From Natrinema caseinilyticum (GTDB lineage: Archaea; Halobacteriota; Halobacteria; Halobacteriales; Natrialbaceae), in contig NZ_CP100446.1 of NCBI RefSeq assembly GCF_024227435.1, positions 434,001 through 498,000 on the forward strand: a stretch of 64,000 bases of DNA, read 5' to 3'. Below, in pieces: positions 11,569 to 29,290 of this stretch. The stretch's first letter is position 1; each line of letters begins with the position of its first letter. Both the position numbers and the translations under genes were made by a program. The notes under the pieces are model-generated. The model searched no databases. It saw only the letters and a list, made by a program, of their open reading frames with translations, and was not told where the DNA came from.

Positions 11569-12777
11569 TTATATTCCACCTTTGAGAAATACGCCCGTTA
11601 CGACGGAATAGACAGCGTATCCAATGCCGAGGGAAAGTGCGAGTGAGCCGACCCATCCGGCGATCGTGTACAGTATTTTTTGTTTGCTCACGTCCGACCC
11701 ACCGGCAGCGTATCCGCTTCCGATGATCCCAGAAACGATAACTTCGTTGAACGATACGGGAATTCCAAACAGAATGGCCGCCTGCGCGATGAGGAACGAC
11801 GGGATGAGCGCCGCGATGGACCGCCGCGGACCGAGCGAGGAGTAATCCCGCGCGAGCGCCTTGATCAATCGGGGAGCGCCGGTCCACGACCCCACCAGTA
11901 GTCCGATTCCCCCGCCGACCAGTAGCCAGACGACAGGGATGGAGACGGTGTCGCGGAGCGGTAAGAGCGGGCCGACTGCGAGTCCAACCTGACTGCCGCC
12001 TGCGGAGAATGCGACGAGCCCGCCGAGGACGAGCAGGAAGCGACGTTGGCCAGCCGTGGCGTCCGATCGAACGTCCGATGCGACGACGGACCCACAACCG
12101 ACGGCGACGGTGAGCGAGACCGCGAGCTGTGCGAGCGTGACGTCCACGAGCGGGAGAGACGCGAGAGACGGGGCTGTGACAGCAGCCAGCGAGGTGCTTT
12201 CCCCGGACGAGCCGAGGAATACGAACTCGATGTTCGCGAGCGTGAGTCCGACGATACCGGCGAGAACCGGAACGGCGATTCGCTCGGAGACGCGCTCGTC
12301 CCTGAGAAGCGACGCGGTCGTATACGCCAGGAAGCTCCCGACGAACGGCACCGCGACCCAGAGGCCGACTATCTGGCGATATGTCGCCCACGCTGGATTT
12401 CCACCGCGCGCGATTCCGACCCCGACGACGGCGCCGGTCACGGTGAACGCCGTCGCGATAGGATAGCCGGTGTAGACGCCGAGGGCGACCAGCGCCGCCG
12501 CAGTGAACAGTGCGACGACGACCGCAATCGGCGAGAGGATGACGCCATCGACGAGACTCTTTCCGATCGTCGCCGAGACGTTCGCACCCTGGAACACCGC
12601 GCCAGCGAATCCCAGCAGACCGACGACGAAGCCAGCCCGCATCACGGAGATTGCGTTCGCGCCGACGGCCGGTGCGAACGGCGTGGAGCCCGAAGACCCC
12701 GCACCGATGGTCCAGGCCATGAACAGGCTCGCTCCGGCCGCGACGACGAGCGTCGCCAACGTGTTCAGTCCTATCAT
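11569..12777 (-). CDS. PiT-family inorganic anion permease, last gene of the molybdoenzyme operon
   Basis: 402 residues, about 10-11 membrane helices, with the family's repeated GANDVA-like motif in the form VGANAISV and FQGANVSATIGKSLVDG. In haloarchaea such proteins are annotated as phosphate permeases of the PiT family. Here the gene starts only 24 bases after the stop of the 114-residue gene that closes the molybdoenzyme/Mrp/MobA series, all on the same strand, so it is probably co-transcribed. PiT relatives such as Bacillus CysP carry sulfate, so sulfate or thiosulfate is a reasonable alternative substrate in this setting (inference). No PhoU-like partner gene is adjacent. Confidence 0.85.
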   Translation of the reverse strand: MIGLNTLATLVVAAGASLFMAWTIGAGSSGSTPFAPAVGANAISVMRAGFVVGLLGFAGAVFQGANVSATIGKSLVDGVILSPIAVVVALFTAAALVALGVYTGYPIATAFTVTGAVVGVGIARGGNPAWATYRQIVGLWVAVPFVGSFLAYTTASLLRDERVSERIAVPVLAGIVGLTLANIEFVFLGSSGESTSLAAVTAPSLASLPLVDVTLAQLAVSLTVAVGCGSVVASDVRSDATAGQRRFLLVLGGLVAFSAGGSQVGLAVGPLLPLRDTVSIPVVWLLVGGGIGLLVGSWTGAPRLIKALARDYSSLGPRRSIAALIPSFLIAQAAILFGIPVSFNEVIVSGIIGSGYAAGGSDVSKQKILYTIAGWVGSLALSLGIGYAVYSVVTGVFLKGGI

Positions 12778-13151: not shown

Positions 13152-13829
13152 TTACTGGTTGGGTAGCAACCGCTGGACCGCCGTCTCGAGGTCGGTTCGC
13201 GTGTTGACGTTGGTCGTCGACTCCTCGATGGGAACTCGTGGGGGTGTGGCCTCGACGGGGAGCGTCACGACTCGCTCGAGGGTCTCCAGTAGCGCACGCG
13301 GTCCAGCACTTCGCGGGAGTTCTGCCCGCGCACGCGCTACTGACGACCGTCGATACAGCGTGTGCAGCGGCTCGGTCGTTCCGTCGGGGTGTCGAATCGC
13401 GACCGCGTCCGGGCGTCCTTCGGACGGACAGCTTCTGCTGTGGAGTTCGTCGACGAGCCACTGAATCGCCGCCGATGAGAGCAACGGCATATCACAGCCA
13501 CAACAGAACAGCCACTGAGAGTCGACGGTATCGATGCCGCCGAACAGTCCGGCCAGCGGACCGTCGAACGCGCCGTCGTCGACTGCGAACGACACATCGC
13601 CAGCTGACACAGCCTCGGCGTACGCATCGCGCTGATCGTCGGAACGGACGGCGACCACCGGCGGCCGAGTCGTCGCCGCGGTGACCGCCTCGACGACGCG
13701 GCCGAGCAGCGTCTGCCTGCCGACCGTCGCGACGGCCTTCTGCTCGTCGGCGTCGCCGAACCGGGTGCTTCGTCCGCCAGCGAGGACCAGGCCTGTCACC
13801 TCGTGCGCGAGGTCAGTCGATGCTGTCAT
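13152..13829 (-). CDS. mobA: Molybdenum cofactor guanylyltransferase
   Basis: 225 residues from MTASTDLAHEVTGLVLAGGRSTRFG (start 13829). LAGGRSTRFG is the nucleotide-binding loop of MobA, and GCDMPLLSS is the metal/GTP motif. MobA attaches GMP to molybdopterin to make the guanine dinucleotide form that enzymes of the DMSO-reductase family need. It follows the Mrp gene by 16 bases and comes before the 114-residue gene by 5, so it is part of the operon and probably serves the molybdoenzyme encoded upstream. A longer frame to 14249 overlaps the Mrp gene and is not used. Confidence 0.9.
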   Translation of the reverse strand: MTASTDLAHEVTGLVLAGGRSTRFGDADEQKAVATVGRQTLLGRVVEAVTAATTRPPVVAVRSDDQRDAYAEAVSAGDVSFAVDDGAFDGPLAGLFGGIDTVDSQWLFCCGCDMPLLSSAAIQWLVDELHSRSCPSEGRPDAVAIRHPDGTTEPLHTLYRRSSVARARAELPRSAGPRALLETLERVVTLPVEATPPRVPIEESTTNVNTRTDLETAVQRLLPNQ

Positions 13830-13845: not shown

Positions 13846-15000
13846 TCAAACGGCCAGACTGTTGATGCGTGCGGCTGTTCGCGTCGCCAGCCGTTCCATC
13901 GCAGCGCGGGAGTCGCCCCCACCGTCTCTGACTGCGATGGGCGGAAGGGACGAGGAGCGCTCGCGCTCCTCGCGCATCCGTGGGAGCTGTAATCGGCCGA
14001 TGCCCGGAATCGAGACGCCGGGCGTCCCCTCGTCGGTATCGGGGTCCAACGTGCCGACCGCGGGGTCGACTGGCAGCTCGCCGAGCACCGGGATGTCGAA
14101 CTCAGCCGCCAGCCCCTCGCCGCCGCCCGCGTCGAAGATGTCGTGTTCACTCTCGCAGTCGGGGCATTCAAAACTCGCCATGTTCTCCGCGATGCCCAGG
14201 ACGGGGACGCCGTATCGAGCGAAGCCCTGCAGGCCGCGGCGAGCGTCATCGACCGCGACCGGCTCGGGCGTCGTCACGATTACCGCACCAGTGACCGGGA
14301 GGTGTTGGACCAACGAGAGCTGTGCGTCGCCGGTGCCAGGCGGGAGGTCGACGAACAGGTAGTCGAGGTCTCCCCACTCGACGTCGCTGAACAGTTGCTT
14401 GATGAACTCGTCGACGAGCGGGCCGCGCCAGATGACGGGGTCGTCTTCCTCGACGATGAAGTCCATACTCATCACTCGTACGCCGTGAGCCTCCCGCGGG
14501 ACGATTTGATCGTCGAGCGTCGCGTCCGGCGTTCGCTCTTCGAGGCCGAGCATCGTCGGTGCGTTCGGCCCGTAGATGTCCGCGTCAAGTAGCCCGACGG
14601 TCGCACCAGCGGCCGCGAGCGCGGACGCTACGTTCACTGCGACCGTGCTCTTGCCGACGCCGCCCTTGCCGCTGGCAACCGCGACGACGTTTTTAACCTC
14701 CGGGATGAAATCGACGCGGTCCTCGAAGCTCGGAACTTCGGATTCGAACCGACACTCGACAGTCGAGACACCATCGACGTCCTGAGCGACGTGTGTCACG
14801 TCTCGTGCGATGGTGTCGCGGACCATCGCCGAGGGAATCGGGAGCGTGACGGTTACCTGTGCCGTTTGCTCTCGGACACGCACCGCCAGCGCATCCAGGT
14901 CGGCGAGCCCGGTGAACAGCACATCACGGGCTATTTCGGCGTCGGCCAGCGCGCGCCGGACGCGTGCGGTGAGTTCGTCGGATTGGTGTCGTGCATCCAT
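13846..15000 (-). CDS. Mrp/NBP35-type FeS-cluster carrier ATPase
   Basis: 384 residues. An N-terminal MIP18/DUF59-like domain (about 1-95) precedes a P-loop ATPase with the deviant Walker A of the family, SGKGGVGKSTVAVN (around residue 114), switch region DADIYGPNAPTMLG and LFVDLPPGTGDAQL. The cluster-binding pair is CPDC in MASFECPDCESEHD. Mrp/ApbC proteins hold and transfer [4Fe-4S] clusters. The gene starts 10 bases behind the catalytic molybdoenzyme gene, so it is probably a dedicated carrier for the five FeS clusters of the complex (inference). A Ser/Arg-rich tail follows the core. Confidence 0.9.
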   Translation of the reverse strand: MDARHQSDELTARVRRALADAEIARDVLFTGLADLDALAVRVREQTAQVTVTLPIPSAMVRDTIARDVTHVAQDVDGVSTVECRFESEVPSFEDRVDFIPEVKNVVAVASGKGGVGKSTVAVNVASALAAAGATVGLLDADIYGPNAPTMLGLEERTPDATLDDQIVPREAHGVRVMSMDFIVEEDDPVIWRGPLVDEFIKQLFSDVEWGDLDYLFVDLPPGTGDAQLSLVQHLPVTGAVIVTTPEPVAVDDARRGLQGFARYGVPVLGIAENMASFECPDCESEHDIFDAGGGEGLAAEFDIPVLGELPVDPAVGTLDPDTDEGTPGVSIPGIGRLQLPRMREERERSSSLPPIAVRDGGGDSRAAMERLATRTAARINSLAV

Positions 15001-15010
15001 GGTTGTTCAA

Positions 15011-18000
15011 TCAGTCGTCGTCCGCCGACCAGTCTTCCGTCGTGGACGTTCGACTGTCGGGGTCCCAGCGTTCCGACCGCCCGACCGGACCGTCGACGTA
15101 CCACGCATCGTCCTCGTCGGGCTCCGTCGGTGGCGCGATAGGGCGTTTGAGCCACTTGGGCCGTCGGAGTCCGTCGGGACCCGGCGCGGGGTTGGTATCG
15201 TCGAGCCACTCGCGGTAGATCTCCATCGACTTGTCGGTGTCGACGAAGATGTCGCCGTAGTAGTCGTCTTCGCCCGCAGGCTTGACGGTCACCTTCTGGT
15301 GCCAGCAGTGCATCCCCGAGATGGGGTCTGGATGCGGTGCGTGGGTGAGGTTCTGGGCGACGCCGCCGTCGGTCCACCAGATGCGCTCGGAGTCGGGATC
15401 CTCGGATTCGAACGGCTTGATGCCGGAGGTCTGGCGCATCCCCCACATCGCCCGGTCGTTGTCGAGGTCGACCGTCACCTTCCCGTAAGGGTCGCCGCCT
15501 TCGTCGAAGTCGCCGTCGGATTCGCCGTCGTTGTCGCGGTCGATCTTCCACTGGCCCATGTGGTGGCTCATCGCCACGATGCCGGGCTTGATGGACTCGG
15601 TCACCCACACCTCGTTGACGTAGTAGCCGATGTCGGTCTCGACCCGAATCAGGTCGCCGGTCTCGACGCCGAGGCGCTCTGCATCCTTGGTGTGGACCCA
15701 GACGGGGTTGTTGTGCGAAATCTCTTCGAGCCACTTCGAGTTCGAGGACCGCGAGTGAATCTGGGTCGGCAGGCGGAACGTCGGCACCAGTACCATCTCG
15801 CCGTTCTCGTAGTCGATGTTCTCGGGGTGAACGTGGGACTTGAGGTAGTTCGGGACGACGTACTCCTCGTCCTCCCAGCCCCAGTCGTCCAGGGTCTTCG
15901 AGTAGAACTGCTGTTTGCCAGTCGGCGTCGGGAAGCCGCGTCGGGGCTCGCCGTCGACCATCACGCCGAGGACCTCGGTGTCGTATTCGGCGATGGTCTC
16001 GCGGTCGACCTCGTCGTAAGAGTAACCGAGGTCGCTGTCGGAGACCGATTCGACGCCCGCCGCGCCCTCATCGCCGTCCGACCCGCCGTCGGCACTGGCG
16101 GTCGTCTCGACCGAGGCGCTTTCGGGAATGCGGCGGATGGTGCCGTACTCGTCGACGTAGACGTCGTCCGCTTCGAGGATAGCGGAGTCGAGCGTGTCCT
16201 CGTGGAGGCCGTAGCGGTTCTGCTTGGCCTCGAACGCGCCGTGGTGTTTCATGTATTCGAGGGGCTCCATCCCCTTCTCCTCGGCGGCCTCGACGAGGTT
16301 CTCTTCGTTTTCGAAGACGTACCGGTAGTACTCGTCGATGGACATCTGGGCGGGCTCGCCGTCCTCGCCATCGCGGTACGGGCTCTCGAAGTACTCGCGG
16401 ATGCCGAGTTCGCCGTCCTCGTCGAGTCGCCACGAGAGGTCCATCCAGAACTCGTCTTCCTCCCAGACCTCGCCGGGGTTGGCCTCGTAGGTCCGCTCGA
16501 CGTCCTCGCCCTCGCGCTCGGCGTATTCCCGGAGCACGGGCTGGCGGTAGGTCACCCACGTCGCAGCGTGGGTCTCCTGGCTCTGGATGTCGTGGCGTTC
16601 GGGACTGTGCCCCATCGGTAGCACGTAGTCGGCGAAGTACGCCGTCTCGTTCCAGGTCGGCGTCAGCGCGACGTGCATCCCGACCTTGTCCTCGTCGGTC
16701 AGCGCCTCGATCCACGAGAAGCCGTCCGGGTAGGTGTAGACGGGGTTGAACACGCGGGTGAAGTACACCGAGATGTCACCCCGACCCTCCTTCAGGAAGT
16801 ACGGCAGGAGATAGCTCAGCTCGTAGTGGGCGAAGGGGTACTCCACCGGCAGCTGGAGTTCGTCCCAGAGTTTCTGGCGCGGCGGCTCTTTGGGCAGGTG
16901 CGGGTCGAACTTGTGCCAGGCGTTCGGCGACGTTCCGCCTTTGGTGCCGACCGACCCTGTGAGGACGCTCAGGAAGTGAAGCGCTCGGCTGACCTGCCAA
17001 CCGCCCTTGTTGCCGGAGGCCGCAGACCGCCAGATGTAGCTGGCGAAGCGGTCGCCAGCCAGGCCGATCTTCCGGGCGACCTTCTCGAGTTGCTCTGCGT
17101 CCACACCGCTCTCCTGGGCGGCATACTGGGGCGTGAAGTCGGCGTAGAGGTCGTTTTTCAGCAGGTCGATGTAGCTCTCGAACGTCCGCGGCCGGTCGGG
17201 ATGCCGCTCGTCGAGGAACTGCTCCCAGTTGACCCACTGGCGCACGAAGTCGGCGTCGTACAGGTCCTCCCGGAGGATGACGTTCGCCATCGACAGGAGG
17301 ACGGCCGCCTCGCTACCAGGCTGAGTCGGCATCCAGAAGTCGGACATCGCCGCGGTGTTCGACAGCCGCGGGTCCATCACGGCGAGCTGGCCGCCCTCCA
17401 TCACGCCCTCCATGATGCGCTGGGCGTGGGGATTGAAGTAGTGGCCTGATTCGAGGTGGGCCGACAGCAGGAGGATGAACTCTGCGTTTGCGAAATCGGC
17501 GCTCGCCCGGTCGTACTTGTGCCAGAACGCGTAGCCTGCTCGCGCGCCCGCCGAGCAGATGTTTGTGTGGGAGTTGTGGCCGTCGAGGTCCCACGCGTTG
17601 ATGACCCGGTCCATGTACTCCTCATGGCCGGGGCGCCCGACGTGGTAGGTAATCTCGTTTTCGCGGCCGTCCTCGATGGTCTGACGCATCTCTGAGGCGA
17701 TATCGTCGAGCGCTTCGTCCCAGGTGGTACGCGTCCACTGGCCGCTGCCGCGCGGGCCGTCGCGCTTCAGCGGGTACTCGATGCGCTGGGTGTCGTTGAT
17801 CTGGTTGACGGTCGCCGGCCCCTTCGCGCAGTTGCGACCCCGACTGCCAGGGTGTTCGGGGTTGCCCTCGATCTTCTGGATGTCGCCGGTGTCCTTGTCG
17901 ATGTAGGTCAACAGGCCACAGCCAGCTTCACAGTTGAAACAGGCGGTCGGCACCACCGAGTAGTCGGTGGGGTCGCCGTCCGACCCGTACTCTCGCCAGT

Positions 18001-18175
18001 CGTCCCACTGTTCGGGATCGGGGTAGCTCCGCAACTGGCCCTCCGGAGCGATTCGTTCGACGCCGTCTGCTTTCCGCCGCTGTCGTTGCCTATTCGTGTC
18101 GTCGGTTCGGTTCGAGATGAGACCCAGCTTCTGGGCGATTCTCTCGACCGAACTCGGATCGAAATCGTGTCCCAT
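15011..18175 (-). CDS. Molybdopterin oxidoreductase catalytic subunit, Soe/Psr-like, no Tat signal
   Basis: 1054 residues of the DMSO-reductase superfamily. The [4Fe-4S] motif is C79-x2-C82-x3-C86-x29-C116, and the next conserved region has C207 in HTNICSAGARAGYAFW, a candidate Mo ligand of the Cys type as in Psr/Phs/Soe enzymes. Further family segments are PTWNETAYFADYVLPM and the C-terminal dinucleotide-binding domain (LRVETDIGYYVNE-like, SHHMGQW). The N-terminus lacks any twin-Arg leader or hydrophobic stretch, so the enzyme should stay in the cytoplasm, which fits sulfite dehydrogenase SoeA better than the exported thiosulfate, polysulfide or tetrathionate reductases. It starts one base after the stop of the FeS/NrfD gene. 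The substrate is not proven; the sulfur neighbours favour sulfite. Confidence 0.85.
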   Translation of the reverse strand: MGHDFDPSSVERIAQKLGLISNRTDDTNRQRQRRKADGVERIAPEGQLRSYPDPEQWDDWREYGSDGDPTDYSVVPTACFNCEAGCGLLTYIDKDTGDIQKIEGNPEHPGSRGRNCAKGPATVNQINDTQRIEYPLKRDGPRGSGQWTRTTWDEALDDIASEMRQTIEDGRENEITYHVGRPGHEEYMDRVINAWDLDGHNSHTNICSAGARAGYAFWHKYDRASADFANAEFILLLSAHLESGHYFNPHAQRIMEGVMEGGQLAVMDPRLSNTAAMSDFWMPTQPGSEAAVLLSMANVILREDLYDADFVRQWVNWEQFLDERHPDRPRTFESYIDLLKNDLYADFTPQYAAQESGVDAEQLEKVARKIGLAGDRFASYIWRSAASGNKGGWQVSRALHFLSVLTGSVGTKGGTSPNAWHKFDPHLPKEPPRQKLWDELQLPVEYPFAHYELSYLLPYFLKEGRGDISVYFTRVFNPVYTYPDGFSWIEALTDEDKVGMHVALTPTWNETAYFADYVLPMGHSPERHDIQSQETHAATWVTYRQPVLREYAEREGEDVERTYEANPGEVWEEDEFWMDLSWRLDEDGELGIREYFESPYRDGEDGEPAQMSIDEYYRYVFENEENLVEAAEEKGMEPLEYMKHHGAFEAKQNRYGLHEDTLDSAILEADDVYVDEYGTIRRIPESASVETTASADGGSDGDEGAAGVESVSDSDLGYSYDEVDRETIAEYDTEVLGVMVDGEPRRGFPTPTGKQQFYSKTLDDWGWEDEEYVVPNYLKSHVHPENIDYENGEMVLVPTFRLPTQIHSRSSNSKWLEEISHNNPVWVHTKDAERLGVETGDLIRVETDIGYYVNEVWVTESIKPGIVAMSHHMGQWKIDRDNDGESDGDFDEGGDPYGKVTVDLDNDRAMWGMRQTSGIKPFESEDPDSERIWWTDGGVAQNLTHAPHPDPISGMHCWHQKVTVKPAGEDDYYGDIFVDTDKSMEIYREWLDDTNPAPGPDGLRRPKWLKRPIAPPTEPDEDDAWYVDGPVGRSERWDPDSRTSTTEDWSADDD

Positions 18176-18176
18176 G

Positions 18177-19952
18177 TTATGCGAGTGAGATGGTCTGCGG
18201 TGCGGTTATCCAGCAATACTCGTAGGCGAACAGTCCGACGAGCGTGGCCACGCCCGCGAGTGCGACCACGACCGGCGATGCACTCAGCGCCAGCGCGACC
18301 AGTGGCACCGCGATGCCGAGCGCCATGCCACCGGCCCAGAACGCGGTGGCGAATCGTCCGCGGACGATGCGTGCAGCTGCCTCTTCGGCGTCTTCGGTCT
18401 GATGGGGCGTGAACAGTTCGGAGGCCACCAACGCGAGGTGAACCACCAATCCGCCCGCCAGGACCAGTCGCGACGGTGTGACGAGTTCCTCGAAGCCGAC
18501 GAGACCGAGGAGCGCCGTCGCGGCCGCCCCGGCGACGATCGCCTGCGTGAGCATGTGCAGCGGCATCGCAGGGCTCTGCCAGAGGTCTCGTCCCTTCGAC
18601 TGGCTGAACAGGAACGCGGTGTAGATGGCCGTCGCGGCCGCCAGCACCGACCCGATCGACAGCACGATCGGGTTGACGACGAGCGCTGCGCCGAGCAGCC
18701 AGCCCAGTACCATCAGGCCGAGGAAGCCGCCGAACGCGGTGATGATGTACGCTCCTTTCACCAGCCAGGAGTTCCAGTTCGGCCGCAACAGCACCCAGTG
18801 GAATCGCGTCGGTTGTTCGAGGTCGAGGATGAGCAATACGCCGGTCAGCCCGAGGAACACCGCACTGAGTAGCGAACTCACGCCCATCAGCGTGACGTCG
18901 GGTTCGAGGAGTCCGAACGCCATCAGCAAGGCCGGAAGCAGGAAGATTCCCGCCGAGATGGACTTGGTCATCGTGTAGGAGTACACTTCCCAGCCCCAGG
19001 ACTCGTAGTGGCTCTCACCGATATCGTAGACTCGCCTGGCTTCTTCGTTGAGCAGTTCGTACGCTTTGGCGGTCCGGTTTTTCTTCTCGCTCGTGGCTCC
19101 GGTGTTCGCTTCCGTGCTGTAGCCGCCGTCCGAGGCGACCTGATCGTCGGAGCCACACGAACACTCGCCGCCGCAGCTACAGTTACCGCCGCAGCCACAG
19201 CCGCCACCGCCGTGGGCGTGTCCGCCGTCGGCGCGCGCCGATTCGTCGTCCGAGGCGTTCAGCGAGACGTCCGACTCGGCGAGCGACTCGGCAGCTTTCT
19301 GGAGATCGAAGTCCTCGCGGGCCGCACCGTGCGTTTCGACCTGGTTCGGGGCGTCCGACCACATGTAGTGTTCTTCGCGGCCGGTCGAACCGGGTGTGAT
19401 CGAACCTTCGTCGCCGTCGACGTAGTACAGCTTGGGTTCGGTCCCTTTCTCGGGCTTTCGTGCCTGGACTTCTTCGTCGGCGATTGTCTGGGAGAGGTCC
19501 GTGTTCGGGTTCTCCATGTCGCCCGCGATGATGGCGTCCTCTGGACAGACCGTCACGCAGGCGGGTTCACGGCCTGAGTCCACCCGGTGAGAGCAGTAGT
19601 TACACTTCGCGGCCGTGGAAGTTTCGGGGTCGATGTACAGCGCGTCGTACGGACAACCCTGCATGCAGGCTTTGCAGCCGATACAGCGCTCAGGGTCGAA
19701 GTCGACGATCCCGTCCTCGCGCTCCCAGAGAGCGGTAACTGGACAGACGTCCGTACAGGGTGAGTCGTCGCAGTGGTTGCACCGCATCACCGAGAAGTTA
19801 CGATTCGTATTTGGGTAGTCGCCCTTCTCGATGTACTTTACCCAGGTTTTGTTTACGCCGATCGGATCGTCGTGTTCGGTCTTGCACGCCACCGTGCAGG
19901 CGTGACATCCGATGCACCGTCGATTGTCGATGACGAAACCGTAGTTTGTCAT
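18177..19952 (-). CDS. Fused four-cluster ferredoxin and NrfD-type membrane anchor subunit with Cys-rich linker
   Basis: 591 residues from MTNYGFVIDNRRCIGCHAC (19952). Residues 1-145 carry four [4Fe-4S] motifs (C13IGCHACTVAC, C58NHCDDSPCTDVC, C90IGCKACMQGC, C117NYC with ACVTVC), as in DmsB/PsrB. Residues 325-591 hold about eight membrane helices with the NrfD/PsrC pattern LDLEQPTRFHWVLLRPNW. These are normally two proteins. The linker contains six cysteines in three CxC pairs, CGCGGNCSCGGECSC (residues 252-266), after a His/Gly run. Together with the next gene it forms a quinone-linked A-B-C enzyme: catalytic subunit to FeS wire to membrane quinone site. Confidence 0.85.
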   Translation of the reverse strand: MTNYGFVIDNRRCIGCHACTVACKTEHDDPIGVNKTWVKYIEKGDYPNTNRNFSVMRCNHCDDSPCTDVCPVTALWEREDGIVDFDPERCIGCKACMQGCPYDALYIDPETSTAAKCNYCSHRVDSGREPACVTVCPEDAIIAGDMENPNTDLSQTIADEEVQARKPEKGTEPKLYYVDGDEGSITPGSTGREEHYMWSDAPNQVETHGAAREDFDLQKAAESLAESDVSLNASDDESARADGGHAHGGGGCGCGGNCSCGGECSCGSDDQVASDGGYSTEANTGATSEKKNRTAKAYELLNEEARRVYDIGESHYESWGWEVYSYTMTKSISAGIFLLPALLMAFGLLEPDVTLMGVSSLLSAVFLGLTGVLLILDLEQPTRFHWVLLRPNWNSWLVKGAYIITAFGGFLGLMVLGWLLGAALVVNPIVLSIGSVLAAATAIYTAFLFSQSKGRDLWQSPAMPLHMLTQAIVAGAAATALLGLVGFEELVTPSRLVLAGGLVVHLALVASELFTPHQTEDAEEAAARIVRGRFATAFWAGGMALGIAVPLVALALSASPVVVALAGVATLVGLFAYEYCWITAPQTISLA

Positions 19953-20295: not shown

Positions 20296-21216
20296 TTACA
20301 GGAACAACACCGGAATGGTATTGCGGAAGATGTTGAGCGCGATGACCAACAGCATGACGATGACCAGCCAGTTGAATTTCTTCTCGTCGATTTCGAGGCG
20401 GCGGAGATAGGTTCCGAACAAGAGCCCGACAATTGTAATGACCCCGATAGCCGACCCTAACCACAGCCGGTAGGGCGTCAGCAGCCCGTTGAACCACATA
20501 TGGATGATGCGCTCGGTGAATACGACGGTGAACACCATCGACAGCCCGCCGACGTACCGCTCGGTGTCGCGTTCGAACGTGTGCAGGTACGCGGGTAACA
20601 GCGGACCGAGGTTCGCGGCCGCCAGCAGGAACCCCTCACCGAGGCCGACCGCGCCGAGAGCGACGGGATTGCTGGCCTCCTCGATCATGACGAAGTTACT
20701 GATGACCTCGAACAGCACATACCCGAGCAGCAAGACCGCGATAAGGAACGGAATCAACGGTCCCTTCTGGAACGAATTGAGGAAAAACACGCCAATGATC
20801 GAGCCGAGGAGCGCGAGCGTAATGAGCGACCACTCGCGCTTGATGTACGTCAGCCCAGTTTTCGTCTCCCCGACCTGAAAGACGTTAATCATCCACGGGG
20901 GAATGGCCAGCACCACGACCGCGAGTGTCGGATCGATGACCGTCGCGAACACCGGAGTCGTGATGAGCGCATACCCGAAGCCGAGTGCGCCCTTGACCGC
21001 ACCTGCAAAAATTGCCACGAGGAAGAAGAACGCTAGCGTGACCGTGCCCACCTCGCTGTTCACCCCCGCGGTTACGTTCTCGAAACCGGGAAACAACACT
21101 ACGCTGGCAATCAGGACGAGCCCGGTCGCCACCACCATCGTCACCTCACGGTACCGAAATTCGAGCAGGTTCTTGGTGAACTGCCTCGGTTGGATTTTCG
21201 TATCTTCAGTCGCCAT
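20296..21216 (-). CDS. TauE/SafE-family sulfite/organosulfonate exporter
   Basis: 306 residues, about eight membrane helices, with the family's two related halves: VAIFAGAVKGALGFGYALITTPVFATV in the first and GEGFLLAAANLGPLLPAYLHTFERD in the second. TauE/SafE proteins move sulfite, sulfoacetate or other sulfur anions across the membrane. The gene follows the rhodanese-hydrolase gene by 128 bases on the same strand, and a T-run terminator follows it, so the two form one unit. Its place beside sulfite-producing and sulfite-oxidising genes makes sulfite export the best guess. Confidence 0.85.
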   Translation of the reverse strand: MATEDTKIQPRQFTKNLLEFRYREVTMVVATGLVLIASVVLFPGFENVTAGVNSEVGTVTLAFFFLVAIFAGAVKGALGFGYALITTPVFATVIDPTLAVVVLAIPPWMINVFQVGETKTGLTYIKREWSLITLALLGSIIGVFFLNSFQKGPLIPFLIAVLLLGYVLFEVISNFVMIEEASNPVALGAVGLGEGFLLAAANLGPLLPAYLHTFERDTERYVGGLSMVFTVVFTERIIHMWFNGLLTPYRLWLGSAIGVITIVGLLFGTYLRRLEIDEKKFNWLVIVMLLVIALNIFRNTIPVLFL

Positions 21217-21344
21217 TATGAACCACGCACCGGTGCCGTTTCACTTCACCGTAGTATTGGGTTTGTAAGGTGTTCGATGTCACTACCGACTGGAGTGCTG
21301 CGTTTTTCGTTGACATGTTGATCACGTATCGTTTGCTTGCGTCA

Positions 21345-22496
21345 CTACTCGACTGCGCATTTGTTCGGCCCGAGTTCGATTTCGGGGTCTTCGACCTCGT
21401 GTTTGCCCTCGTTGATGGCGATTATCTCCTCGTGATTCGCCGGCTTCGAACCCAACTGTTCGACGATGTAGTCGACGAACTCCTCCTTGGAGTCTTTCTG
21501 GACGGCCTCGTTCGTCGCCTCTATCTCGCCGATCGTCGCCGTGATCGGCGTGCCAGCGTCGACCTCTCCACCGCTGTAGTGAGCAGGGAAGACCGACACA
21601 TCGTCGTCGTGGGTGAGGATTTTGCCGAAGATCGACTCATAGAGCACTTCCGCATGCTCTTCGGCGCCCTCGTCGCCGTGTTCCAGATCGGGGCGACCGA
21701 CACTGTCGACGAACTGCGTGTCGCCCGTCAACATCGCTGCGTCGTCGACGAGGTAGGAGGTACTCTCCATCGTGTGACCGGGTGTATGGAGGACCTTGAT
21801 TTCGTGTCCGCCGAGGTCGAGCGTCTTGCCGTCCGCGACGGCGCGGAACTCCGAGCAGCCACCCGGCTGTTCGGTTCGGTCAGAGACGGGCGCGCCGACG
21901 ATGAGGTCGGCGTCGTGCTTTTCTGCGAGTTCGCAACCGGACGAGATATGGTCGGCGTGGATGTGGGTAAGCGCCACGTACTTGACGTCGACCTCGCCGT
22001 TCTCGTCCTGGAATCGTTCGTCGCTTTTGAGATTGCGCTCGAAGACGTCGGTGTACTGGACCGGGTCGACGATCATCGCCTCGCCGTCGGCGCCGACGAC
22101 GTACGACAGGCAGCCGTTGGCGACGCGTTTGGTCTGTTTGAACACGATGTCGGAACCGAGGTCGATGTCGACAACGTCGAAGACTTGACTCCAGCCGAGC
22201 ATGCCGTCCTCGAGAGTGGCGGCGTCGAAGCCGCGACGCGAGAGTGCACTCGCGGCCCGACGGCTCGTGTTCCCGTGTGCGCATACCACGACGATTCGCT
22301 CACCCTCGTCGAATAGTTCATGCGGGTCTACCTCGAATTCGTCTGCTTCGGCATCATACGGCAGATGGATGGCGCCGGGAATGTGCCACTGTTCGTACGA
22401 ATCATGCGACCGCACGTCTGCGATTGGCGTCTTGTAGTCGATTCTACCCATAAGTCCTTGGGGCGTGATTTGCCCCATGACGTGGCCTGATTGCAT
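21345..22496 (-). CDS. Rhodanese and metallo-beta-lactamase fusion, persulfide-dioxygenase type
   Basis: 383 residues if started at MQSGHVMGQITPQGL (22496); ATG at 22478 is an alternative. Residues about 10-100 are a rhodanese domain with active-site loop VVCAHGNTSRRAA, whose Cys would carry the persulfide. Residues about 125-330 are a metallo-beta-lactamase domain with ALTHIHADHISSGCELA, LHTPGHTMES and LTGDTQFVDSVGRPD, the last resembling ETHE1-type persulfide dioxygenases and their relatives. The tail ends NKCAVE. In the family the metal site oxidises persulfide to sulfite, and the rhodanese domain moves sulfane sulfur. It is cytoplasmic and heads a unit with tauE. A hydroxyacylglutathione-hydrolase-like role is less likely given the fusion. 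Confidence 0.8.
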   Translation of the reverse strand: MQSGHVMGQITPQGLMGRIDYKTPIADVRSHDSYEQWHIPGAIHLPYDAEADEFEVDPHELFDEGERIVVVCAHGNTSRRAASALSRRGFDAATLEDGMLGWSQVFDVVDIDLGSDIVFKQTKRVANGCLSYVVGADGEAMIVDPVQYTDVFERNLKSDERFQDENGEVDVKYVALTHIHADHISSGCELAEKHDADLIVGAPVSDRTEQPGGCSEFRAVADGKTLDLGGHEIKVLHTPGHTMESTSYLVDDAAMLTGDTQFVDSVGRPDLEHGDEGAEEHAEVLYESIFGKILTHDDDVSVFPAHYSGGEVDAGTPITATIGEIEATNEAVQKDSKEEFVDYIVEQLGSKPANHEEIIAINEGKHEVEDPEIELGPNKCAVE

Positions 22497-22673: not shown

Positions 22674-23126
22674 ATGTTCGATTCGATCCTGATACCGGTC
22701 GACGGAACTGACACGATGGACGAGCTGATCAAGCGCGGCTACGAGTTGGCCCAGACGCACGACGCTGACGTCCACGGACTGTTCGTGAACAACGTCTCTG
22801 ACATTATCCCCACGACCACAGCGCCCGCAGCCCCGCGCGAAATCGATGAAGAAGTCGAACGGCAAGGTGAACGCACACTCGATCGAATGCGTCGGCTTTC
22901 ACCGCCGGGATTCGACCCCGTCACCGAGTTCCGTCAGGGCAATCCGGCCAACGAGATCATCAGGTACACGGACGAGAACGACATCGATTGCATCGTCATC
23001 GGCCGGAAAGGGACGTCCGTCCTCTCACACCTCGGGAGCAACACCTCCGGCGTCGTCCAGGGAAGCAACGTCCCCGTGTTGGTCGTGCCGTTCGGCGACT
23101 CGGACGCCGAATCCGAAGAAGCGTAA
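22674..23126 (+). CDS. Universal stress protein (UspA family)
   Basis: 150 residues of the UspA fold: FDSILIPVDGTDTMDELIKRGYELA at the start and IDCIVIGRKGTSVLSHLGSNTSGVVQGSNVPVLVV at the end. The glycine-rich region corresponds to the ATP-binding loop, GRKG-x9-G-x-NTSGVV, slightly altered from the usual G-2x-G-9x-G-S/T. The gene is divergent from the rhodanese gene and convergent with the soxB-like gene (31-base gap), so it sits inside the sulfur island and may respond to the same conditions. The precise role is unknown. Confidence 0.9.
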   Translation: MFDSILIPVDGTDTMDELIKRGYELAQTHDADVHGLFVNNVSDIIPTTTAPAAPREIDEEVERQGERTLDRMRRLSPPGFDPVTEFRQGNPANEIIRYTDENDIDCIVIGRKGTSVLSHLGSNTSGVVQGSNVPVLVVPFGDSDAESEEA

Positions 23127-23157: not shown

Positions 23158-24948
23158 TCACCGCTTTTCGTTGAACGCCTCCTCGAGGTGGACGTTACTC
23201 CGGGGAATCATCGACACCTCGCAGTACTCCTCGCCGTTGGCGTAGTCGACGCCGGGCTGGATGTGCGGGTACGGGCCGTCGGCAGGCGTGTTCTGGACCT
23301 CGCCGCCGTCCTCCGGGGTCTGGACGAGCCCCATCACGTCGTAGTCGACGGGCGAGTTGTTCTCGAAGTACTCGATGAGCACGTCGACGGGGATAGTGCC
23401 GTTCTCGATCTCGACGTTCCGGAAGGGGAACCCACAGTTGCCGAGGTCCTTCTCGGGGTCGCCGGGTCGCCGCAGCGTCGCCACCGTGTACGTCTCCTCG
23501 GGGTCCATCGGTTCGCCATCGACGGTCATCTCGACGAGTCGGCGGCCGCGTTTTGCGGTCGGGTCGACGGTGACCTCGACGTTCGAGGAGTAGTTACGGA
23601 GACGGCCGTCTTCCTGGTCGTAGACGTACGGCGTGAAGTTGTCCATCAGGAAGTTCTCCATGTGGTTCATGATCTGTTGGCCGTACGCGTCGCCCTTCGC
23701 GACGGGCGCGGTCATCGGGAAGAACGTGTAGAGGTCGCCGATAGTGACCTCGCCCGCCGGGATGGCCGACCCGTATCGGAACCCGTGGGAGATAGCCAGG
23801 TCGGCGTCCATGTACTGTTTGAGTGCGTCGTTGTAGAGGGTGTTCCAGGCGCTCTCCAGGAACGACTGGCGATACAGTGGTTGCTCCGTCTCACCGACGA
23901 CGGTGTCGATCGGTCGGTCGAGCGTGCCGTTCCCGCGTTCGGCCTCGACGTCCGCTTCGAGAAACGGTGCTCGTACCTCCTCAACCGTCCGTTGGGCGTC
24001 CGGGTCGGGTTCCGGGGTGTACTCGTGGTCCTCGACGAGACAGTAGAGGTTGTGCCGGAACTCCAGTTCGCCGTCGTTGATTCGCACGTCGACGCGACCG
24101 AGGCCGTCTCCCATCCCGGATTCGACGACCACGGTGTCGGTATCCTGGACGACGATGGGTTCGTGGGTGTATTCGTGGGTGTGGGCCGAGAACATCACGT
24201 CGATGGAGTCGAAGTCCTTGGCGGCCTGGACCATCCACTGGAGCCCGATTTCGGTGATGGCGACGACGATGTCTGCGCCGTCGTCGCGCGCTCGTTGGGC
24301 GTACGTATCGAGGAGGCGCGGGTGCTTTGCGAACTTGTATTTCTCTTTCCAGAACAGCGGCATCATCCGATCGACGTAGACGTTGGTCATGCCGACGACG
24401 CCTACTTTCGTCCCGCCGACATCCTCGATGGTGTAGGGGTCGAAGATGAGTTCCTCGCTGTCCCAGTCGAGGAGATTGTTGGCGAGGACGTGTGCGTCGA
24501 GGCTCTCCATCAGTTCCACCATATTACCGTCCTCGACGGCCTCGTTGGAGTAGTCCCAGTTCCCGGGCATGTAGATGTCGGGACGGAGGTGGTGGTTGAT
24601 GGGGTCGAGCATCGACTTACCAAGGGTGTAGGTCGTGACGGCGGTCCCGTGGAAGGTGTCGCCACTCATCAGGGTAAGGACGTCCTCGCCGTACTCCTCG
24701 CGGATTTGGTCGAGTTTCGCGGTCAGTATCGGGACGCCACCGCCTTTCTCGATGAGCTTGTCCGCGCCGTCGAAGTCGAGATCGGGTCGGGACTTCGGGT
24801 TGTTGTAGTATACCTGGTATCCGGGCGTGATTTGACCGTGCAGGTCACTCAGGTGCGTGAACACGACATCGGGGTCGCCCTCCGGGGCGTCGGACGGAGA
24901 ACCGTTCAGGCGCTTCCACTCCCCGAGGTAATCGGTGTCAAGGCGCAT
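23158..24948 (-). CDS. soxB-like: SoxB-like thiosulfohydrolase without signal peptide
   Basis: 596 residues from MRLDTDYLGEWKRLNG (24948). A metallophosphatase domain (about 25-300) has FTHLSDLHGQ, LMSGDTFHGTA, MPGNWDYSNE and FSAHTHEYTHEP, and a 5'-nucleotidase C-terminal domain (about 345-540) has SHGFRYGSAIPAGEVTIGDLYTFFPM. Trp in GNWDY instead of the His of GNHE, and the GFRYG loop (GFRWG in bacteria), are SoxB marks. SoxB hydrolyses sulfonate from a carrier-bound S-sulfocysteine using two Mn ions. Bacterial SoxB is exported by Tat; this start shows no leader, and the 46 in-frame codons upstream contain none. No soxYZ, soxXA or soxCD lies in the window. A cytoplasmic nucleotidase is the alternative. 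Confidence 0.75.
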   Translation of the reverse strand: MRLDTDYLGEWKRLNGSPSDAPEGDPDVVFTHLSDLHGQITPGYQVYYNNPKSRPDLDFDGADKLIEKGGGVPILTAKLDQIREEYGEDVLTLMSGDTFHGTAVTTYTLGKSMLDPINHHLRPDIYMPGNWDYSNEAVEDGNMVELMESLDAHVLANNLLDWDSEELIFDPYTIEDVGGTKVGVVGMTNVYVDRMMPLFWKEKYKFAKHPRLLDTYAQRARDDGADIVVAITEIGLQWMVQAAKDFDSIDVMFSAHTHEYTHEPIVVQDTDTVVVESGMGDGLGRVDVRINDGELEFRHNLYCLVEDHEYTPEPDPDAQRTVEEVRAPFLEADVEAERGNGTLDRPIDTVVGETEQPLYRQSFLESAWNTLYNDALKQYMDADLAISHGFRYGSAIPAGEVTIGDLYTFFPMTAPVAKGDAYGQQIMNHMENFLMDNFTPYVYDQEDGRLRNYSSNVEVTVDPTAKRGRRLVEMTVDGEPMDPEETYTVATLRRPGDPEKDLGNCGFPFRNVEIENGTIPVDVLIEYFENNSPVDYDVMGLVQTPEDGGEVQNTPADGPYPHIQPGVDYANGEEYCEVSMIPRSNVHLEEAFNEKR

Positions 24949-25517: not shown

Positions 25518-26288
25518 ATGGGAAAAGAGGTAAAACATCCGGTGAAGGCGACCGAGAAAACGCTCGCGATCATCGAGGCGCTCAAAAATCAAGACGGTGG
25601 CCGAGTCACTGCCCTCGCAAATTCTCTCAATATGAGCAAAAGTGTCGTTCACAACCACCTCGCGACGCTGGAGAAACACGGGTACGTGGCTAAAGACGGC
25701 AACGAATACCGACTCGGGCTGAAGTTCCTCGACCTCGGCGGGTACATCCGCCATCACATGGAACTCTACCAGATTTCCAAGCCCGAAATCGACGCGATGG
25801 CCGAACAAACGGGCGAACTTGCGAACCTCCTGACCGAGGACGACGGGTGTGGCGTCTACCTGTACCGGGCGAAGGGAGAGCAGGCAGTCGACCTCGATAC
25901 GTACGTGGGCCGACGCACCAATCTCCATTACACCGCACAGGGAAAGGCGATTCTCGCCCATCTTCCGGAGAACCGTCTCGAAGATATCATCGAGGAGAAG
26001 GGGTTGCCCAAGGCGACTGAGAACACGATAACCGACCGCAAAGCGCTCGCCGAGACGCTCGCCACGATTCGCGACCGGGGGTACGCCTACCACGAAGAAG
26101 AGCGACTCGAAGGGCTCCGGTCGGTCGCCGCCCCCATCGTCACCGACGACGGCACTGTCCACGGTTCGATCAGCGTCTCCGGCCCCGCGAGTCGAATGCA
26201 GGACGAGGGAGGGGAGTCTGATATCCCCAAGTTGGTCTGCTCGACCTCCAACGCGATCGAACTCAACCTCAAGTACGCCAACGTTTGA
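25518..26288 (+). CDS. IclR-family transcriptional regulator
   Basis: 256 residues from MGKEVKHPVKATEKTLAIIEAL; an in-phase ATG a few codons earlier does not exist, and the ATG at 25508 is out of frame. The N-terminal winged helix (residues about 8-70: GGRVTALANSLNMSKSVVHNHLATLEKHGYV) and the effector domain with LHYTAQGKAILAHLP and EERLEGLRSVAAPIVTDDG are standard for IclR. It closes the sulfur island and is the only regulator inside it, so it is the best candidate for its control. IclR proteins sense small organic or inorganic ligands; the ligand here is unknown. Confidence 0.9.
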   Translation: MGKEVKHPVKATEKTLAIIEALKNQDGGRVTALANSLNMSKSVVHNHLATLEKHGYVAKDGNEYRLGLKFLDLGGYIRHHMELYQISKPEIDAMAEQTGELANLLTEDDGCGVYLYRAKGEQAVDLDTYVGRRTNLHYTAQGKAILAHLPENRLEDIIEEKGLPKATENTITDRKALAETLATIRDRGYAYHEEERLEGLRSVAAPIVTDDGTVHGSISVSGPASRMQDEGGESDIPKLVCSTSNAIELNLKYANV

Positions 26289-26531: not shown

Positions 26532-28472
26532 TCACCCGAGCTGTTCGGCCGGGATGCGGTCGTACTCGTTCGAAAACGCCTGCGCGTCTTCGGGAAGCAC
26601 CGCGACAGCGAGGAATGGAGCGTACCCGGCAAAGTAGTCGACGAGAGCGACGATCCGGTCTGAGTCGATGGCTTCCAGCGAGTCAAGGAGGACGAACGGC
26701 ACGAACTCGTACACTTCGTGGACCAGGAACCCCGCGAGTGCGACGACCAGACCGATGGTTTCGCGTTCGGACTCCGAGAGGGTCGCGACGGTATCCTCGT
26801 ACATCGCGCCGTCGCTTTCGCGAACGACGTGGAGGTCGAAACTCGAGTCGTCCGCCGAGTTCGTCGTCTTGCGTTCGATCCACACGCGGGCGATGTCGTA
26901 CTCTAAGAGGTCGAGTACCGACGCCATCTCCTCGTTGAACGCCTCGACGGCCTCGCGTTCGAGGTCGTCGATACGCGACCGAAGCGACGCGAGTTCGTCC
27001 TGGACTACGGATAGTCGATCCGTCACGCGGTCGCGCTCTTCTGCAGCGTCGGCCACTGCTGCCAGTTCCGCCTCGGCATCCGAAAGGTCGCTTTCGAGTT
27101 TGCCCCGCTCGTACTCGAGTTCGCTGAGCGCTCGATACGCCGAGAGGACGTCCTCGCGGAGCGACCCGGTTTCTTCGACCTGCTCTTGGAGGTCGTCAAT
27201 CTCCGCTCTGAGCGTCGCCGCCTCGTCTTCGTAGTTCGTTACGTTTTGCTCTCGGTGAGAGATCTCTCGATCGAGTTCGTCCAGTCGACTACGGAGTTCC
27301 GCCTGTCGTTCGCTCGAGCGTTCCAGTTCGCGTCGCCGCTCTTCGACCGTCGTCAGGTCGGATTCGACGCTGTCGCGTTCGGCCTGTTTTTTAGTGACCA
27401 GGTTTCGGAGCGTCTCGAGGCGTTCGTCGATGTCCGACTGCTCGACCCGACTGCCGCAGGTCCAACACTGCATCGTCTTCGACGACGGATCGAGGTCGGC
27501 AGCGACGTCGCCCTCGTCTTCGACGTTCCGGAGGCCGCTCGTCTCGCCAGCCAACAGGTCCTCGGTGAACTCGACGACTCGCACCAAATCGTCGATCTCG
27601 TTCTCGACCTCGCGCTTGCGCCGCTTGAGTCGGGTACTCTGCTGGTCGAGTTCGTCGAGTTCCTCTTCGGACGACTCGATATCGTCGAGTTCGGCCGCCA
27701 CGTCCGCACGCTTCGTTCGAAGCGAGCGAAGCTCGGACTCCTGGTGGTCCTTGCGGTCGAGTGCGTCGTCCAGTTGCCCACGCAGTTCCTCCAGTTCGTC
27801 GAGCAACGATTCGGCCTCCTCGGCCTCGGCTTCCGCCGCGTCGAAGGCGTCTACGGTTTCGCGGACGTCGGCCAGTTCGTCTTCGACCGCCTCGAGGTCG
27901 GCTCGACGCTCGTCGCGGCGGCGTTCGAGTTTGGGGCGGCGGTCGACCGTCGCCTCGAGGTCGTCGAGCTTCGACCGAAGGTCGTCACGTTCGGCCTCGC
28001 GGTTCCGGATGTCGTCTCGAAGCTGGTCGGTATCGACCGGCCGCATGATGACCTCGCGCAGGTCGTCCCCGCGTTCGACCGCACGACGGGCGGGGTTGTC
28101 TTCGAGCAGACACGCGAAGGTGTCGACGTATTCCGGTTCGTCGACGAAGGGGTCGCCGTCGACGGAAACGGTTCCGGCTTGCCGCGTGTATTCGCGGGTG
28201 TAGGTCTCTCCGTCGAGCGCGAGTTCGACGCCGCCGTAGTCGGCGTCGGCTTTCAGCATGGCCGCGGTCCCGCCGAGCACGCCAGCGATAGCGCTCAGAA
28301 ACGACGTCCGGTTCGTGGCGTTTCGGCCGGTGAGTATGGTGATACCGGACGAGAGTGTGACTTCGCAGTCGTCGATACCGCCGACGTTCGTCACCGAGAC
28401 TGTCGCGGATCTCTCCGTGAATTCGTCGATTGTATCTCGAGTCTTTTGCCCGGTGTCGGCGTTACGTGACAT
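26532..28472 (-). CDS. Archaea-specific SMC-related protein with CxxC hook
   Basis: 646 residues. The N-terminal head has LSSGITILTGRNATNRTSFL, where the usual P-loop GxxGxGKS is replaced by GRNATNRTS. Residues about 150-600 are long coiled coils rich in Glu, Arg, Asp and Leu, broken by MQCWTCGSR (C336, C339), a Rad50-like zinc hook. The C-terminal head has TLSESERETIGLVVALAGF (signature) and PFVLLDSLEAIDSDR (Walker B). This matches the haloarchaeal archaea-specific SMC-related proteins. It is encoded behind rdfA on the same strand with a 215-base gap. Such pairs are linked to cell-shape control; a DNA- or membrane-associated ATPase is the family expectation. Confidence 0.85.
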   Translation of the reverse strand: MSRNADTGQKTRDTIDEFTERSATVSVTNVGGIDDCEVTLSSGITILTGRNATNRTSFLSAIAGVLGGTAAMLKADADYGGVELALDGETYTREYTRQAGTVSVDGDPFVDEPEYVDTFACLLEDNPARRAVERGDDLREVIMRPVDTDQLRDDIRNREAERDDLRSKLDDLEATVDRRPKLERRRDERRADLEAVEDELADVRETVDAFDAAEAEAEEAESLLDELEELRGQLDDALDRKDHQESELRSLRTKRADVAAELDDIESSEEELDELDQQSTRLKRRKREVENEIDDLVRVVEFTEDLLAGETSGLRNVEDEGDVAADLDPSSKTMQCWTCGSRVEQSDIDERLETLRNLVTKKQAERDSVESDLTTVEERRRELERSSERQAELRSRLDELDREISHREQNVTNYEDEAATLRAEIDDLQEQVEETGSLREDVLSAYRALSELEYERGKLESDLSDAEAELAAVADAAEERDRVTDRLSVVQDELASLRSRIDDLEREAVEAFNEEMASVLDLLEYDIARVWIERKTTNSADDSSFDLHVVRESDGAMYEDTVATLSESERETIGLVVALAGFLVHEVYEFVPFVLLDSLEAIDSDRIVALVDYFAGYAPFLAVAVLPEDAQAFSNEYDRIPAEQLG

Positions 28473-28604: not shown

Positions 28605-28688
28605 CGACACTAGGGAGGATTGCATCGTGACGCCCATGGATTGTACCGTGAGGCCGGTAGGACTGTCCGTGACGCCGATGGAAGTCCT
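28605..28688. repeat. 21-base tandem repeats between rdfA and the SMC-related gene
   Basis: CGTGACGCC-ATGGA begins at 28626 and again at 28668, with a diverged copy (CGTGAGGCCGGTAGGA) at 28647, so the period is exactly 21 bases. A weaker copy is seen at 28605 and possibly one before. On the minus strand this equals a seven-residue repeat (SIGVTDS, PTGLTVQ, SMGVTMQ), but in a frame that is not that of rdfA. Confidence 0.55.
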
Positions 28689-29290
28689 CATTTCTCACGA
28701 CACGCACAGCGGCCGCGGTCGAGGAGTTCTTCGACTGGGTACGACGAACCGCACACTGTGCACGTAATACGGACCGAGTGGGTTACGTCGAGCGAACCGA
28801 CTTTGAGTTCGTCGTTGCGTCGTAGTTGTTCGAGCGTTTGGTCGACGATGTGTTCGTCGCGGCCGCGTGCCCATTCGATGACTTCACGGCCTTCCGTGAT
28901 GTCGGTGACGCCCTGCCGTGAGGTGTCGATGTCGAGGCAGTCAGCGAGATGAGCGCGGACTGTCTGATGGGAGACGAAGTCGTCGGTCACTCCCGTGACG
29001 TCGATACCAGCGTAATTCAGTTGGTCACGGACGTCGGCGCGATGTTCGGGGGCGACATCGTCGCCGGTGAGTGCCTCGTACACCGATGAGGGGTCGCCCA
29101 CTACGTCGACGTCGGCGTTCTCCATGGCGGCTCCGAGGATGCGGGTGTTGGTGACGTCGGCGAGGGCTCGCAGGCTCAGGTCGTCGCGCTCACGTCGGTC
29201 GCGAAGTTCTGCATCGAGCTCCCGGAGACCGTAGGCGTCGATAGCTCGTCCAACTTTGCAGCCACAATGGTCCAATTCGTCGTCGGTCAT
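28688..29290 (-). CDS. rdfA: RdfA-family rod-determining factor
   Basis: 200 residues. The N-terminus DDELDHCGCKVGRAIDAYGL and the following DLSLRALADVTNTRILGAAMENA (a winged-helix-like region) are the marks of RdfA, known from Haloferax volcanii as a factor for rod shape. The C-terminus holds a zinc ribbon, CTVCGSSYPVEELLDRGRCAC. The middle has a helix-rich part (VSHQTVRAHLADCLDI). The next gene on the strand is the SMC-related protein, the usual partner. Many haloarchaea carry several such pairs, and accessory copies near mobile elements are common, as here with an IS630 element upstream. Confidence 0.85.
   Translation of the reverse strand: MTDDELDHCGCKVGRAIDAYGLRELDAELRDRRERDDLSLRALADVTNTRILGAAMENADVDVVGDPSSVYEALTGDDVAPEHRADVRDQLNYAGIDVTGVTDDFVSHQTVRAHLADCLDIDTSRQGVTDITEGREVIEWARGRDEHIVDQTLEQLRRNDELKVGSLDVTHSVRITCTVCGSSYPVEELLDRGRCACREK

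Follow-up and report, generated by a model that had tools for sequence, protein, structure and literature searches.

A rhodanese-first metallo-beta-lactamase fusion beside a TauE gene in Natrinema caseinilyticum, a likely persulfide dioxygenase, and its recurrent SoxB-like neighbor

Does a protein in which a rhodanese precedes a metallo-beta-lactamase (MBL) domain, encoded next to a predicted sulfite exporter, turn sulfane sulfur into sulfite? This question is raised by a minus-strand two-gene unit at positions 20296-22496 of a 64,000-nucleotide stretch of Natrinema caseinilyticum DNA (hereafter the window; NZ_CP100446.1, 434,001 to 498,000), located on a 715-kb contig (C2) of a 4.77-Mb genome. 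The unit consists of the fusion gene and a TauE/SafE gene (Table 1). We consider it probable, judging from sequence relationships and gene neighborhood, that the fusion is a cytoplasmic sulfurtransferase-persulfide dioxygenase that makes sulfite. In the proposed scheme, the N-terminal rhodanese would load Cys64 with sulfane sulfur, donated by thiosulfate or by some other sulfane compound, and transfer it to a small thiol, for which gamma-glutamylcysteine is the likeliest candidate, after which the C-terminal persulfide dioxygenase (PDO) domain would use O2 and a mononuclear iron to oxidize the persulfide, yielding sulfite and the regenerated thiol. The sulfite would then leave through TauE, or be converted to sulfate by a neighboring molybdenum (Mo) complex with a fused iron-sulfur (Fe-S) and NrfD subunit, which would donate the electrons to quinone.

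The fusion comprises 383 amino acids when read from the ATG at 22496 and 377 if the alternative ATG at 22478 is the start. Its N-terminal half matches PF00581 Rhodanese (60.7 bits, E = 2e-16, residues 39-124 of the 403-residue open frame), and its C-terminal half matches PF00753 Lactamase_B (41.7 bits, E = 1.6e-10, residues 148-291 of the same frame). All other residue numbers given here count the codon at 22470-22472 as residue 1. On this count, the rhodanese cysteine lies at 64 and the MBL motif at 170, whereas CstB has its MBL motif at residue 56 and its rhodanese cysteine at 408, which confirms an earlier note on this DNA in its claim that the domain order is reversed relative to CstB. Natrinema gelatinilyticum (99%) and Halomicrococcus gelatinilyticus (81%) each encode, on a plasmid, an ortholog that aligns over the full length, and further orthologs with 63-64% identity occur in two other genomes (G137 and G247); hence, the frame is not a chance open reading frame. 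A contig scan of named genomes, which was not exhaustive and missed G137 and G247, yielded six loci in total and no ortholog beyond the two plasmid ones, the remaining four being short matches to the rhodanese region (39-111 residues, 32-48%).

Structure matches and phylogeny both place the MBL domain among the PDOs. The solved structures nearest to the fusion were 3r2u and 3tp9, followed by 9rhq, 4ysb, 8zbd, and 5ve3 (E = 8e-26 to 5e-12), all of PDO or PDO-rhodanese type, with 3r2u and 3tp9 combining an MBL with a rhodanese. The literature names 5ve3 and 4ysb as PDOs. In a maximum-likelihood tree built from 41 MBL domains, 31 of them taken from the 66 rhodanese-first rows of our alignment, the rhodanese-first proteins formed one clade (support 100/99), and the PDO set as a whole (rhodanese-first, CstB-like, and ETHE1/Blh) was split from Escherichia coli GloC and three MBL frames of the source genome at 100/99. 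Within the rhodanese-first clade, the window fusion and two orthologs formed a separate deep branch (100/100). These results bear out the PDO kinship that the earlier note had proposed, and the fusion likely functions as a PDO.

The active site is consistent with this assignment while being less discriminating. All 64 distinct family rows share the rhodanese cysteine, the Arg of a GR(P/T) motif, and seven residues of the MBL site (HxHxDH, H, D, H), and both the iron ligands of PDOs (two His and one Asp) and the other conserved MBL-site residues are thus present in the fusion family. The earlier note had staked its proposal on the iron-coordinating residues: Their presence held up throughout, but as a test it cannot tell a PDO from a glyoxalase II, since GloC has identical MBL-site residues, and the metal-site residues are accordingly necessary and not sufficient for a PDO. 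The MBL domain could, then, be a thioester hydrolase, whether of a glyoxalase II-like or another kind, with the rhodanese as an accessory. The fusion does match the gloB model TIGR03413 (55.5 bits), and the PDB search places the glyoxalase 7l0b (E = 6.2e-11) above human ETHE1 (9.6e-10), so that the PDB sequence ranking alone is not clean. We nevertheless regard a thioester hydrolase as very improbable, because the gloB score lies far under the cutoff of 200.8 and Staphylococcus aureus CstB, a named PDO, itself scores 78.1 on the same model, because the tree joins the fusion to PDOs and sets it apart from GloC, and because the neighbors are sulfur genes. Besides the GloC residues and the rank of 7l0b, a number of points count against a PDO: The tree program flagged long branches, no NCBIfam model reached its cutoff for the fusion, AlphaFold models built on three-row alignments were too poor for use (mean predicted local distance difference test scores of 42.3 and 29.4), a Bacillus licheniformis paper terms YrkH a hypothetical or likely PDO, and no activity data for the rhodanese-first clade were found among open-licence PMC papers. 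The available parts of PMC13384644 and PMC4048286 do not mention the rhodanese-first fusion.

A set of three cysteines distinguishes the family. Cys64, Cys121, and Cys372 were invariant in 66/66 rhodanese-first rows, including those of Cytobacillus and Rhodococcus, and a simple count of sequence ends found a GPNxC tail in 43 of the 66. In contrast, seven other MBL rows (CstB, Blh, GloC, Methylophaga, Leptospirillum, and two of Rhodococcus) had neither a cysteine at the Cys121 column nor a GPNxC tail. A cysteine-containing NCA, however, also ends the Leptospirillum row, which is sister to the rhodanese-first clade. The window fusion carries the full set of clade features, i.e., PF00581 followed by PF00753, the rhodanese cysteine, Cys121, and the C-terminal Cys372. 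Domain order was built into this alignment, as 64 of the 66 rows were picked by at least 85% coverage of the window fusion, and the conservation was therefore tested within the type and does not measure how frequent the type is. Cys121 and Cys372 may serve to pass sulfur from one active site to the other, and the family-wide cysteine signature merits attention as a new detail.

The rhodanese-first order itself, which the earlier note had treated as special, did not prove so in a domain-order survey. A protein search of the haloarchaeal class found a fusion match (E <= 1e-20) in 287 of 292 genomes; among the matches listed, alignments start at query residues 1-45 and end at 401-403. Copy counts are minimum values, as the search scored no more than six candidates in any one genome. 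The source genome has seven copies, the six others being full length with 35-44% identity to the window copy. Plasmid records with a fusion match showed at least 80% query coverage in 127 of 539 cases, and among 50 plasmid matches listed at even steps, the first twelve had at least 95% coverage, ten of them haloarchaeal and two from Bacillaceae. Pfam also placed Rhodanese before Lactamase_B in one protein each of Cytobacillus (L132) and Rhodococcus jostii RHA1. A 2016 proteomics table labels Hlac_0596 of Halorubrum a "rhodanese domain + metallo-beta-lactamase domain protein." Rhodanese-first is thus a standard haloarchaeal architecture and is found in Bacillaceae and Rhodococcus too. Despite being near-universal in the sampled haloarchaea and often multicopy, the fusion appeared in no biochemical study that we found among open-licence PMC papers.

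The strongest evidence for a shared pathway comes from the recurrence of the fusion and TauE with a SoxB-like gene, which in the window lies at 23158-24948 and goes unmentioned in the earlier note. The SoxB-like protein occurs in 49 of 391 class genomes (E <= 1e-60), and we surveyed 40 regions from 39 of the 48 genomes other than the source, leaving 38 loci after dropping G137 and G247. A rhodanese-first fusion adjoins the SoxB-like gene at 26 of these loci, TauE at 25, both at 20, and neither at 7 (combined counts made by hand), with genome relatedness inflating all of these numbers. In 25 of the 26 loci the fusion lies 59-143 bp downstream of the SoxB-like gene on the same strand, while at the 26th (L092) the SoxB-like frame is over-called and the fusion order was taken from a separate cluster comparison; TauE is divergent, 124-377 bp upstream, in 22 of 25, with one member confirmed by Pfam. 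The SoxB-linked fusions (8 tree rows) fall on a different branch from the window fusion, and one SoxB-linked TauE is just 23% identical to the window TauE, whereas the SoxB-like proteins are 62-71% identical. Hence, it seems that either the trio was assembled more than once or the partners diverged fast.

For this partner, SoxB of the Sox system gives the best match in both NCBIfam and the PDB (PDB, E = 1.3e-28), and yet we rejected a true SoxB for the window gene: It scores 212.6 bits on TIGR04486 against a cutoff of 550, and a UshA-like Sporosarcina protein scores higher (324.5), as compared to 842.8 and 725.9 for annotated SoxB controls and 292.3 for a Pontibacter protein. Also unlike SoxB, none of the 42 haloarchaeal rows inspected by eye (window, Halomicrococcus, and 40 loci) has a signal peptide, and the five haloarchaeal rows displayed carry a GNWD motif, as does the Sporosarcina row, in place of the HWE of two SoxB rows. 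Relative to the usual 5'-nucleotidase motif, GNH, the His is replaced by Trp, in the UshA-like Sporosarcina row as well, and the SoxB-like protein may still be an ordinary 5'-nucleotidase. Models for SoxY (PF13501) and SoxZ (PF08770) matched in none of the 49 genomes with the SoxB-like gene, nor in 14 built-in control genomes, while they did detect known Sox plasmids (SoxY 1/1, SoxZ 2/2). The recurrent SoxB-like partnership in genomes without SoxYZ matches looks new and testable, and through it one could examine directly whether a small thiol can be a substrate for chemistry of the SoxB type. It also advises caution, in that 5'-nucleotidase or soxB labels in halophile genomes should not be trusted at face value; a "SoxB" in PMC3512248 was set aside, being a cytochrome oxidase subunit. 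Among the 38 loci (L079-L116), we further noted two recurrent proteins on either side of the SoxB-like gene, named by reading the sequences: one multicopper-oxidase-like (14 loci), the other like a heavy-metal P-type ATPase (8 loci), which suggests a link to metal-resistance islands. On a Pontibacter akesuensis plasmid, a SoxB-like "bifunctional metallophosphatase/5'-nucleotidase" (L141, 2917-4569) has a rhodanese gene close by, as well as a putative sulfate exporter, and SoxB-like proteins outside Sox operons may thus have sulfur partners in Bacteroidota too.

TauE is the next gene downstream of the fusion in 5/5 ortholog loci, the window included, and Pfam together with these five loci places both TauE and the Soe-like complex in the gene run of the fusion, as the earlier note had described. 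No NCBIfam model reached its cutoff for the Mo complex. By eye, the window-type catalytic subunits and those of Natrinema halophilum, Thermomicrobium, and Rhodococcus lack a twin-arginine translocation (Tat) signal; a distant Azoarcus homolog has one. The subunit should therefore face the cytoplasm, like SoeA and bacterial SreA, which are cytoplasmic according to a published table whose bSreA/SoeA row holds, by our reading of its columns, 5 archaeal versus 1,339 bacterial entries. The missing Tat signal and the fusion of the Fe-S and NrfD parts would fit a complex of the SoeABC type, and the complex is termed Soe-like by location. It is found in 13 of 391 class genomes (E <= 1e-150), and in a survey of 11 further haloarchaeal loci from 10 genomes, those of the window, G137, and G247 being excluded, Mrp lay near 10, TusA near 4, and a fusion-like match of unverified length near 4. 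Two plasmid loci (L119 and L120) had Mrp only, with no TusA, fusion-like, or TauE match. Two TauE queries gave no match beside the Mo complex at any of these 11 loci or at L119 and L120, which also tells against the proposed scheme: Export and oxidation are not always paired. In R. jostii RHA1, the complex is accompanied by TusA, DsrE, and Mrp as well as by a rhodanese-first fusion. Taken together, its neighbors support a role in sulfite or sulfane chemistry for this candidate sulfite dehydrogenase. As a separate observation, a single stretch of R. jostii pRHL3 encodes three PDO-group proteins near the Mo complex, one of them rhodanese-first and two MBL-first (L122, 6295-7440(-), 3281-4660(-), and 16128-17492(+)).

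The same gene set bears on what the cluster does with sulfur. Since TauE, a sulfite-oxidizing complex, and an IclR regulator form a common set for sulfonate use, the cluster might deal with sulfite from organosulfonates, with the fusion clearing side products only; no desulfonating lyase or monooxygenase was recognized among the nine cluster proteins scanned and the recurring partner is SoxB-like, and we find this account hardly probable. Alternatively, the fusion may work in reverse or in assimilation, making or using thiosulfate (persulfide plus sulfite) to balance sulfane sulfur, with TauE handling thiosulfate or sulfite. A PHO4/CysP-like permease within the cluster would suit such a role, the title of a paper on a Burkholderia PDO-rhodanese states a function in sulfur assimilation, and that of a 1985 paper names thiosulfate as a major small sulfur compound of halobacteria. 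Sequence cannot tell the direction of a sulfurtransferase, and the Soe-like complex and SoxB-like gene fit oxidation better, which leaves reversal or assimilation unlikely.

With respect to the thiol of the sulfite-forming dioxygenase that we favor, a GCS2-family ligase match was present in 7/7 genomes tested (E = 2.8e-77 in that of the window), so assays with glutathione only could miss the activity. A true PDO linked to gamma-glutamylcysteine would account for the removal of sulfane sulfur in haloarchaea. We also entertain, as a speculative and rather doubtful extension, that haloarchaea have a cytoplasmic counterpart of the Sox system without a carrier protein, in which the SoxB-like hydrolase would free sulfate from a gamma-glutamylcysteine S-sulfonate or thiosulfonate in place of SoxY, the persulfide would pass to the rhodanese-first PDO, whose three cysteines would relay it to the iron, and the sulfite would be exported by TauE or oxidized by the Soe-like complex, the module having been built at least twice with different fusion and TauE branches.

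Among known systems, CstB of S. aureus (type III PDO) offers the nearest structure type (3r2u) and a neighboring tree branch, and the cst locus likewise contains a TauE gene. We rejected CstB as the identity of the fusion on domain order, because its MBL comes first and is followed by two rhodanese-like regions, and CstB moreover lacks the Cys121 and GPNxC features of the fusion. Blh (Xylella and Agrobacterium, with a Sinorhizobium copy at L135) resembles the fusion in having the sulfurtransferase first and the PDO second, with a TauE-related transporter in its operon, and its coupled activities have been measured, with thiosulfate plus glutathione reported to drive O2 uptake and sulfite formation. 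Its sulfurtransferase, however, is DUF442 there and not PF00581, its MBL domain groups with a Methylophaga ETHE1-like row unlike that of the fusion, and we rejected the fusion as a Blh because it reached 56.6 bits on NF040641, in the MBL part only, against a cutoff of 625. Neither the domain order nor the TauE pairing is new, a sulfurtransferase-first PDO with TauE being already published for Blh. The Cytobacillus protein (L132) shares the rhodanese-first order and the three cysteines at 32% identity to the window fusion, with TauE one TusA gene beyond it; the genes annotated within the 9 kb examined include neither a SoxB-like gene nor a Mo complex. Judged by gene order, it is probably of the same type as YrkH in the B. 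licheniformis paper. BpPRF of Paraburkholderia (match 5ve3) likewise joins a PDO to one rhodanese, but with the rhodanese at the C terminus.

Table 1. Positions in the window of the fusion, its marked residues, and the surrounding genes.
Feature	Position	Strand	Basis or remark
PHO4-family anion permease	11569..12777	-	PF01384, 162.1 bits; NF053884 CysP, 74.9 bits, weak (cutoff 400)
Molybdenum cofactor guanylyltransferase (MobA)-like	13152..13829	-	64% to Halomicrococcus gene of that annotation
Mrp/NBP35-type P-loop protein, iron-sulfur carrier family	13846..15000	-	PF10609, 302.8 bits
Molybdopterin oxidoreductase catalytic subunit, Soe-like by location, no Tat signal by eye	15011..18175	-	
Fused Fe-S and NrfD membrane-anchor subunit	18177..19952	-	PF13247, PF03916; start set by Halomicrococcus MTNYG comparison
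TauE/SafE membrane protein, predicted sulfite exporter	20296..21216	-	PF01925, 61.7 bits (gathering cutoff 32.6)
Rhodanese/MBL fusion, rhodanese first; predicted sulfurtransferase-PDO	21345..22496	-	Pfam, PDB matches, active-site residues, tree
C-terminal Cys372 codon, GPNKCAVE tail	21357..21359	-	Cys in 66/66 rows
HIHADH metal-site motif, MBL domain	21948..21965	-	Active-site alignment
Family-specific Cys121 codon, GCLSY, start of MBL domain	22110..22112	-	Cys in 66/66 rows
Rhodanese catalytic Cys64 codon, loop CAHGNTS	22281..22283	-	Motif; Cys in 66/66 rows
Universal stress protein, between fusion and SoxB-like gene	22674..23126	+	PF00582; in other four clusters
SoxB-like metallophosphatase/5'-nucleotidase-family protein, 596 residues, predicted cytoplasmic	23158..24948	-	TIGR04486, PDB match
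IclR-family regulator, candidate cluster regulator	25518..26288	+	PF01614; in other four clusters

The cluster recurs on the N. gelatinilyticum and H. gelatinilyticus plasmids and in G137 and G247, with some variation in content: That of H. gelatinilyticus has no Mrp match, and those of G137 and G247 have no MobA match, and there the SoxB-like gene has the Mo and Fe-S genes on its opposite side. Its IclR-SoxB end is flanked in the window by an SMC-related gene, 26532-28472(-), and an RdfA-like gene, 28688-29290(-), which are annotated in Halomicrococcus as "archaea-specific SMC-related protein" and "rod-determining factor RdfA." This pair lies near the cluster in N. gelatinilyticum, Halomicrococcus, and locus L096 too, with no match in the stretches L077 and L078. 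Farther out, the frame at 29881-30483(+) resembles a fragment of an IS630-type transposase, which could mark past mobility next to the cluster.

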